Of a stretch of 64,000 nucleotides of DNA, positions 33,066-33,256 are shown one piece after another. Under the pieces are notes generated by a model. That model did not search any database and was not told the DNA's origin. It worked only from the letters and a program-made list of their open reading frames with translations. How positions within the stretch are numbered: position 1 is the stretch's first letter; each line of letters starts with the position of its first letter. Both the position numbers and the translations under genes were made by a program. Source of the DNA: Micromonospora yangpuensis (GTDB taxonomy: Bacteria; Actinomycetota; Actinomycetes; Mycobacteriales; Micromonosporaceae); assembly GCF_900091615.1 (NCBI RefSeq), contig NZ_FMIA01000002.1, positions 372,001-436,000 on the forward strand, read 5' to 3'.

Positions 33066-33181
33066 GGAAATCCCCGTTCTGTCGCTTGCCCAGCCGTCGT
33101 CCACGTCGACGACGACGCGGGAGGTCGCGGAGCCCGGATGACACCGGTTCCGGCTTCGGCTGGAGATTTTGCAGCAGAACC

Positions 33182-33202
33182 GGGGTCTTGCCGCAAGACC
33201 CC
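33182..33202. promoter_or_regulatory. Rifamycin-associated element (RAE)
   Basis: GGGGTCTTG-CCG-CAAGACCCC is a perfect 9-bp inverted repeat; read on the minus strand its core is CTTGCGGCAAG, which matches the core of the RAE that I recall upstream of rifamycin-inactivating genes in actinomycetes. It lies 117 bp before rox. TTGCGG (33196-33191, minus) can serve as the rox -35, with TGCAAA 17 bp or CAAAAT 19 bp further on as -10. Confidence 0.8.
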
Positions 33203-33216
33203 CGGTGCGGTATACG
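33188..33216 (+). promoter_or_regulatory. Plus-strand promoter sharing the RAE
   Basis: TTGCCG (33188-33193) and TATACG (33211-33216) are separated by exactly 17 bp. The -35 lies inside the RAE, opposite the presumed rox -35, so one element would control two divergent promoters. The transcript would start at about 33222, just before a terminator hairpin. Confidence 0.5.
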
Positions 33217-33224
33217 TTAAGAGT

Positions 33225-33256
33225 GGCAGGGAGCGGTCGACTCCCTGCCTTTTCTT
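33225..33256 (+). terminator. Intrinsic terminator immediately after the plus-strand RAE promoter
   Basis: GGCAGGGAG and CTCCCTGCC (33225-33233, 33241-33249) form a 9-bp stem with a 7-nt loop and are followed by TTTTCTT. It begins only a few nucleotides after the predicted start of the RAE-linked transcript, and no plus-strand gene lies upstream of it. Confidence 0.75.

Follow-up and report, generated by a model that had tools for sequence, protein, structure and literature searches.

The original RAE paper is said to date from 2014, and the palindrome itself we take to be of the GGGGCTTGCGGCAAGGCCCC kind. The RAE is described as a palindrome of about 19 bp that lies upstream of rifamycin-defence genes, overlaps the sense -35 element and is needed for induction by rifamycins (PMC10719064, PMC12802891). 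In the parts that deal with the RAE both papers, the second from January 2026, leave its mechanism open and mention sense promoters only, including M. smegmatis P1, which lies ~20 bp upstream of the RAE (PMC10719064); the word "divergent" is absent from PMC12802891.

A rifampicin alarm built from two promoters has been described in B. subtilis. According to the parts of PMC12802891 that treat it, the promoters of PhelD/Panti-helD and of pps are convergent, with 39 bp between their starts, and both can load RNA polymerase (RNAP). The antisense promoter is the stronger of the two and is escaped faster, the antisense RNA of ~90 nt is ended by a terminator and forms part of the rifampicin switch, and a 17-bp shortening of the gap abolished induction (PMC12802891, section 48). 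At the tandem rpoBC promoters of M. smegmatis, sub-inhibitory rifampicin shifts promoter competition (Zhu 2018, as reported in PMC10719064, section 9).

Here we analyse the RAE upstream of rox in Micromonospora yangpuensis, within a window that comprises the whole 64,000-nucleotide stretch of DNA under study. We propose, with a probability of about 0.68, that the RAE is a mirror-symmetric, back-to-back promoter pair in which the sense promoter drives the defence gene and the antisense promoter usually gives a dead-end RNA of ~30-40 nt. An earlier sequence-only reading of this window knew of no described partner transcript; we likewise found neither a divergent RAE promoter nor a partner transcript in the open-licence literature, so that one may exist elsewhere, although for B. 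subtilis helD an antisense RNA has been published, as noted above.

The RAE of the M. yangpuensis rox locus

The M. yangpuensis genome spans 6.5 Mb and the window has a G+C content of 70-76% (4-kb steps). The sense gene rox (31632..33065, minus strand) encodes a rifampin monooxygenase of 477 aa that matches NF033145 (rif_monoox) at 897.7 bits against a cut-off of 800. Centred 127 bp upstream of its ATG (33065), the RAE is a perfect palindrome of 21 bp (10+1+10), GGGGTCTTGC-C-GCAAGACCCC, at 33182-33202 (centre 33192), with a -35 core TTG on each strand. Sequence inspection identified a -35-like TTGCGG on the minus strand (33191..33196), pointing to rox, and a -35-like TTGCCG on the plus strand (33188..33193) that overlaps it by 3 bp, both just where the sequence-only reading had seen them. 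The putative sense -10, CAAAAT (33166..33171, minus strand), follows after a 19-bp spacer. A consensus promoter scan (16-18-bp spacers, at least 9/12 matches) flagged neither RAE promoter at this locus, and the support for both candidates is comparative. A search for the complete two-promoter module gave a single copy in the window and none in 100 shuffles.

The loose RAE pattern GGNNTTGCNGCAANNCC, which is palindromic and reads on both strands, matches a single place in the genome (33184-33200 of the window), and no helR was found in the genome at E 1e-100. In many genomes of this genus the loose pattern is found at 2-4 places.

One terminator-like site was found within 32500-34000, with a stem at 33225-33249 of nine pairs (seven G-C) and a tail TTTTCTTGTC, against a mean of 0.3 (sd 0.6) in shuffles. 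The hairpin folds at -18.7 kcal/mol (z -3.8), and none of 200 shuffles folded equally well. The 9-bp hairpin with TTTTCTT of the sequence-only reading is thus present, at 33225-33256, and far more stable than shuffled sequence.

The antisense-side neighbour, which lies outside the module, is a Phd/YefM-type antitoxin gene (33306..33563, plus strand; TIGR01552, PF02604), followed by a PIN-domain VapC-like toxin gene (33548..33946, plus strand; PF01850, with VapC models matching below their cut-offs) and, just past it, a tRNA-Lys (TTT) gene (33973-34047, minus strand). A TACGCT at 33294-33299 on the plus strand is spaced such that a start would coincide with the ATG (33306) of the antitoxin gene, which suggests a leaderless mRNA from a promoter of its own.

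Collection of RAE sites

The pattern GGNCTTGCGGCAAGNCC was present in 177/394 genomes of the class, and its reversed control in a few dozen or fewer. A looser RAE pattern matched 121/151 relatives, a count that includes chance matches, since the reversed control also matched many genomes. We assembled 299 loci: one from the genome itself, 30 loci and 20 listed places from the 151 relatives, 30 loci and 100 further places among the matches listed from the class search, and at least 118 stretches from another search, all of which were used. Removal of loci with a flank under 150 bp and of identical duplicates left 288 sites, 243 of which have the start of a defence gene within 500 bp (helR 115, rox 66, rph 26, arr 19 and rgt 17). 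Representatives of the gene groups were named with NCBIfam, arr and helR passing the curated cut-off and rgt and a partial rph falling below it; the rox of the window is itself a member of the rox group. Sites were oriented by the adjoining defence gene and not by promoter motifs; in the one case where defence genes flanked a site on either side, the nearer gene was used. The 243 sites were picked by palindrome and share ancestry.

Mirror geometry of the -10 hexamers

With distances counted from the dyad centre, the sense strand of the 243 sites carries a CAGAAT-like hexamer with A at +22 (1.00) and T at +26 (0.99), and on the antisense strand T21, A22 and T26 (0.98 each) are the best-conserved positions. 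At distance 21, NANNNT was found on the sense strand in 240/243 sites, 19 bp from TTGCNG, and TANNNT on the antisense strand in 237/243, with both present in 235; one base to either side the hexamer counts fall to 0-2 on either strand. NANNNT also occurs on the sense strand at distances 23 (34 sites) and 24 (48 sites) and on the antisense strand at distance 27 (122 of 243), because an A or T lies inside or adjoins the conserved block, and antisense TANNNT has no such secondary peaks. Several of the eight sites without both hexamers are 1-bp shifts, as judged by eye. Among 83 named loci, which fall into 45 genera or bins, 42 of the 45 have at least one locus with both -10 hexamers.

On the antisense strand the -10 typically reads TANGTT and, like its sense counterpart, lies behind a spacer of 19 bp; the conservation of T21, A22 and T26 therefore points at the rox locus to TACGTT (33213..33218, plus strand), the exact mirror of the sense -10. 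The sequence-only reading had placed the plus -10 on TATACG at an exact 17-bp spacing. That hexamer does exist (33211-33216), 2 bp upstream of TACGTT, but it lacks a T at -7 and we rejected its register on conservation. The antisense TATA at distances 19-22 also shows conservation (0.83-0.98), so that other readings of this stretch are possible, and spacers of 19 bp are long for a sigma-70-type promoter.

The 45 sites that have no recognised defence gene serve as a comparison: 29 have neither -10, 13 have both, two the sense -10 only and one the antisense -10 only. The named members of the 29 come nearly all from outside the Actinomycetes, and most look like chance palindromes that provide natural controls. 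Two actinobacterial sites beside no recognised defence gene fit the promoter pair less well: L192 keeps the sense arm and has a shifted antisense arm, and in L208, in appearance a decayed RAE, both -10 hexamers are without their T.

A second, weaker conserved block lies in the sense leader of the 243 loci, at approximately +31 to +54 relative to the dyad centre; it reads roughly CGGCCGA.GCC, then GCGGAAA.GGG, and is blurred by indels.

The module in loci found by protein

A gene-anchored set of 100 loci, the window included, was drawn from the best 70 of ~104 listed rox places and the best 30 of ~101 helR places. The module was found within ~500 bp in 73 of these loci and was absent from 27; in shuffled upstream regions it passed the threshold in 0-1 of 100. 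Overlap with the palindrome-picked sites is limited, as 13 of the 73 modules have the same 53 bases as a member of the set of 243. All 73 have a complete sense -10 and both TTG and CAA, and 72 have the antisense -10. No otherwise perfect locus without an antisense -10 was seen among the 100, though the threshold would admit one. The 18 palindrome mismatches in the 73 modules all fall on C-5, C-1, G+1 and G+5, sparing TTG and CAA; the constraint would therefore act on a single TTG in each strand, as expected of a pair of -35 elements.

By comparison across loci the promoter reading is strong, and the putative promoter pair is far more general than one locus. The sequence-only reading had proposed looking for the antisense -10 at other RAE loci, and it was borne out in 237/243 palindrome-picked and 72/73 gene-anchored loci.

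A recurrent CTTGTGGCAAG variant breaks one inner palindrome position and keeps TTG, CAA and both -10 hexamers; it was seen at eight rox loci (L340, L345, L346, L353, L396, L400, L402 and L421) and one helR locus (L363).

A hairpin at the predicted antisense start

When T26 is taken as -7, antisense +1 falls at distance 33, where the hairpin starts. At the rox locus the predicted start is thus ~33225, 66 bp from the predicted sense start, and the tiny antisense RNA (33225..33256, plus strand) would begin on the first base of the hairpin (33225-33249), end in the tail TTTTCTT (33250-33256) and measure ~30-35 nt. The RNA of ~35 nt, almost all terminator, that the sequence-only reading expected keeps its approximate length with a corrected start: not at ~33222, 1-3 nt before the hairpin, but on the hairpin itself. 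Its picture of a divergent plus promoter in the RAE with a terminator at once after it finds support at the level of sequence.

The same arrangement recurs among the 243 loci. G33-G34, which would be GG at +1/+2, is present in 213, and the mean fold energy of antisense 30-mers reaches its minimum at distances 31-33 (-12.3 versus -7.6 for shuffles), the excess over shuffles on the sense side being ~0.8 at most. Hairpin arms pair better with their own partners (16.2) than with swapped arms (12.55, sd 0.22). Hairpin counts depend on the rule applied. A fold of -9 or better is present at 189/243 antisense starts, against 106-115 for dinucleotide shuffles, which also fold well in such G+C-rich stretches, and 52 on the sense side. 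An ungapped stem is found at 160/243 loci (shuffles 47-62, sense side 29), and the strict rule of stem plus T tract selects 84/243 (single-base shuffles 2-6, sense side 0). In the gene-anchored set 61/73 loci have a stable fold at antisense +1 (dinucleotide shuffles 27-34, sense side 22). The hairpin that the sequence-only reading looked for at other RAE loci is therefore common but not universal: by gene, a fold of -9 or better occurs at 98/115 helR, 22/26 rph, 50/66 rox, 13/17 rgt and 6/19 arr loci, arr being the rarest, and among named loci a stable fold is present in 24/24 Kitasatosporales (Streptomyces and kin) and 9/17 Mycobacteriales. Stem sequence, loop and length vary between loci. 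The antisense -10 is kept in 14/15 loci with a weak fold. The constant part is the putative promoter, more than the RNA.

We considered the tiny RNA as a leader of the toxin-antitoxin genes or of neighbours generally and rejected this for loci with hairpin and T tract, since their antisense-side neighbours are divergent in 35 cases, convergent in 34 and without a called CDS in 13 (gene calls by a codon-position rule; 9/243 loci were too short). Neighbours lean convergent at loci with a hairpin and no T tract (17 divergent versus 43 convergent) and are even at loci without a hairpin (32 versus 34), where the median distance between the dyad and the end of the convergent neighbour is 85 bp.

On the antisense side of three helR loci (L228, L247 and L252) lies an Rv2578c-family radical SAM gene whose start is 82-93 bp away from the dyad. 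Ahead of it stands TCGAACNNNNGTTCGA, a sequence that resembles the mycobacterial SOS box; here the neighbour's own control region sits in the place of the hairpin.

Occurrence in other phyla

The 53-base module was found in 8/150 Gemmatimonadota genomes (nine places; reversed control 0), one of the eight being the entry genome for that search. All nine places adjoin a defence gene (rox 7, rph 1, rgt 1) that is 43-71% identical to the references; the antisense folds range from -3.1 to -15.2, with few clear hairpins. Two Chloroflexota loci (L121 and L147) carry the module beside defence genes, as does a Xanthomonadaceae genome with arr (L142/L323), whose fold of -17.2 is followed by six T; this genome is the only one of 200 Pseudomonadota genomes that matches a stricter pattern, which was found in none of 199 Bacillota genomes. 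A Bradyrhizobium locus (L107) combines rox with a partial module. Apart from Bradyrhizobium, the titled records from other phyla are metagenome bins or uncultured isolates, and misassignment is therefore possible. A viral occurrence of the RAE was considered and rejected: among viral contigs, 14 stretches match the module, none with the outer GG..CC.

Proposed mechanism and alternative explanations

In the back-to-back arrangement that we propose, the palindrome would supply one -35 core (TTG) to each strand, with a -10 hexamer 19 bp from each, and both promoters would fire. With -35 elements that overlap by 3 bp and starts 66 bp apart, two RNAPs could not plausibly share the element, and so only one would occupy it at a time. 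The antisense arm would then divert RNAP traffic and hold the sense gene low when no drug is present, and the terminator would keep antisense traffic out of the neighbouring gene.

We modelled this arrangement at steady state, with one RNAP pool, a fraction f of drug-arrested RNAP and mutual exclusion of the promoters. The drug multiplies the sense flux by (1-f)(1+X)/(1+(1-f)X+f*Y), an expression smaller than 1 whenever f is positive, and sense induction appeared in 0/200,000 random parameter sets. The proposal of the sequence-only reading that rifampicin relieves promoter interference thus gains no support as it was put. When two convergent promoters were modelled crudely, induction exceeded 2-fold in 3.4% of sets, the extreme values being unrealistic. 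Since occlusion alone never induces, something further would be needed (a factor, the tiny RNA or another property of RNAP); the most likely trigger would be a factor that acts at the palindrome, or else some RNAP property beyond the model, and an effect of the tiny RNA is also possible. The bolder proposition, that the RAE is more than an operator and the sensor cannot do without the antisense dead-end promoter, that RNAP, itself the target of the drug, determines the response by competing for the one -35 palindrome and needs no dedicated regulator, and that the module has moved between phyla with the defence genes, is speculative and on balance doubtful.

The alternative with the best prospects, to which we give a substantial minority chance, is that the palindrome is the operator of a rifamycin-responsive regulator; its symmetry would give rise to the antisense promoter as a by-product, from which the terminator would insulate the neighbour. 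Symmetric sites suit dimers, such a factor would provide the drug trigger that occlusion cannot, and an as-yet-unnamed factor is indeed proposed in section 9 of PMC10719064 and in the RAE passages of PMC12802891. On the other side, a -10 would be superfluous in a by-product, but conservation is as high for the antisense -10 (237/243 sites) as for the sense -10 (240/243), the antisense -10 persists at 14/15 loci with a weak fold, and the palindrome mismatches spare TTG and CAA. The eight ORFs scanned next to three loci outside the Actinomycetota, one of which has no Pfam match, include no DNA-binding regulator, which is a weak test.

It is improbable, to our mind, that the tiny RNA is itself a cis- or trans-acting regulator, with RNAP or the sense mRNA as possible targets, and that rifampicin releases the defence gene by stopping the synthesis of this RNA. 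The hairpin placed at +1, the better pairing of own than of swapped arms and the GG at +1/+2 in 213/243 loci would all fit such an RNA, as would B. subtilis, where antisense RNA drops while helD mRNA rises according to the helD parts of PMC12802891; variable stem sequence, loop and length speak against it, as do the arr loci, most of which lack the hairpin, and the antisense -10, which is kept at almost all loci.

An alarm that consists of RNAP only, as in B. subtilis, in which the sense promoter is held down by the antisense promoter and freed once rifampicin arrests RNAP there, seems to us just as unlikely. The parts are those of Panti-helD (a sense and an antisense promoter, an antisense spacer of 19 bp and a nearby terminator), but with divergent orientation and overlapping -35 elements an arrested RNAP would block both promoters, and the exclusive model produced not one inducing set in 200,000. 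An upstream sense promoter such as P1 was tried as the convergent partner and rejected, as no enrichment was seen 36-190 bp upstream at 9/12 matches (0/242; shuffles 0-1), a strict rule that may miss a P1 ~20 bp from the RAE. That the antisense TATANGTT and the hairpin are protein-binding or structural DNA and not promoter and terminator is very unlikely: TATA at distances 19-22 is conserved beyond the needs of a -10 in the 19-bp register, but the mirror identity with the sense -10, the A and T of TANNNT at 0.98, the GG at +1/+2, the covariation of the arms and the restriction of hairpin and T tract to the antisense strand argue against it.

The preferred reading, a back-to-back promoter pair, predicts the antisense -10 and start site to the base, and this makes the question of the drug switch directly testable.

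Comparison with known systems

In its palindrome core, its position upstream of a rifamycin-defence gene and the overlap with the sense -35 the element in the window agrees with the published RAE. The conserved unit is larger here: it also takes in a putative antisense promoter in mirror image, at whose start a hairpin usually lies.

Bidirectional promoters that arise from DNA symmetry were reportedly described by Warman in 2021, with divergent starts and a shared -10 region; the RAE is likewise symmetric with divergent starts, and its shared part is the -35 palindrome. MerR-type promoters also have spacers of 19 bp, with a palindrome inside the spacer between -35 and -10, whereas the RAE palindrome is centred on the -35 elements. 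The rpoBC promoters of M. smegmatis resemble the RAE in promoter competition and differ from it in being tandem and pointing in one direction, with no RAE mentioned.

There is also a likeness to the B. subtilis alarm. In both, promoters in sense and antisense direction precede a defence gene, on the RAE side as judged from sequence. The B. subtilis antisense promoter has a spacer of 19 bp and its RNA stops at an intrinsic terminator, and the same features are predicted for the RAE. The RAE promoters are divergent rather than convergent, their -35 elements overlap and their predicted starts lie 66 bp apart. As the B. subtilis alarm is of the convergent, both-loading kind, the RAE would therefore share its parts and not its wiring, and the actinobacterial element is tied to the alarm as a system of the same parts differently wired.
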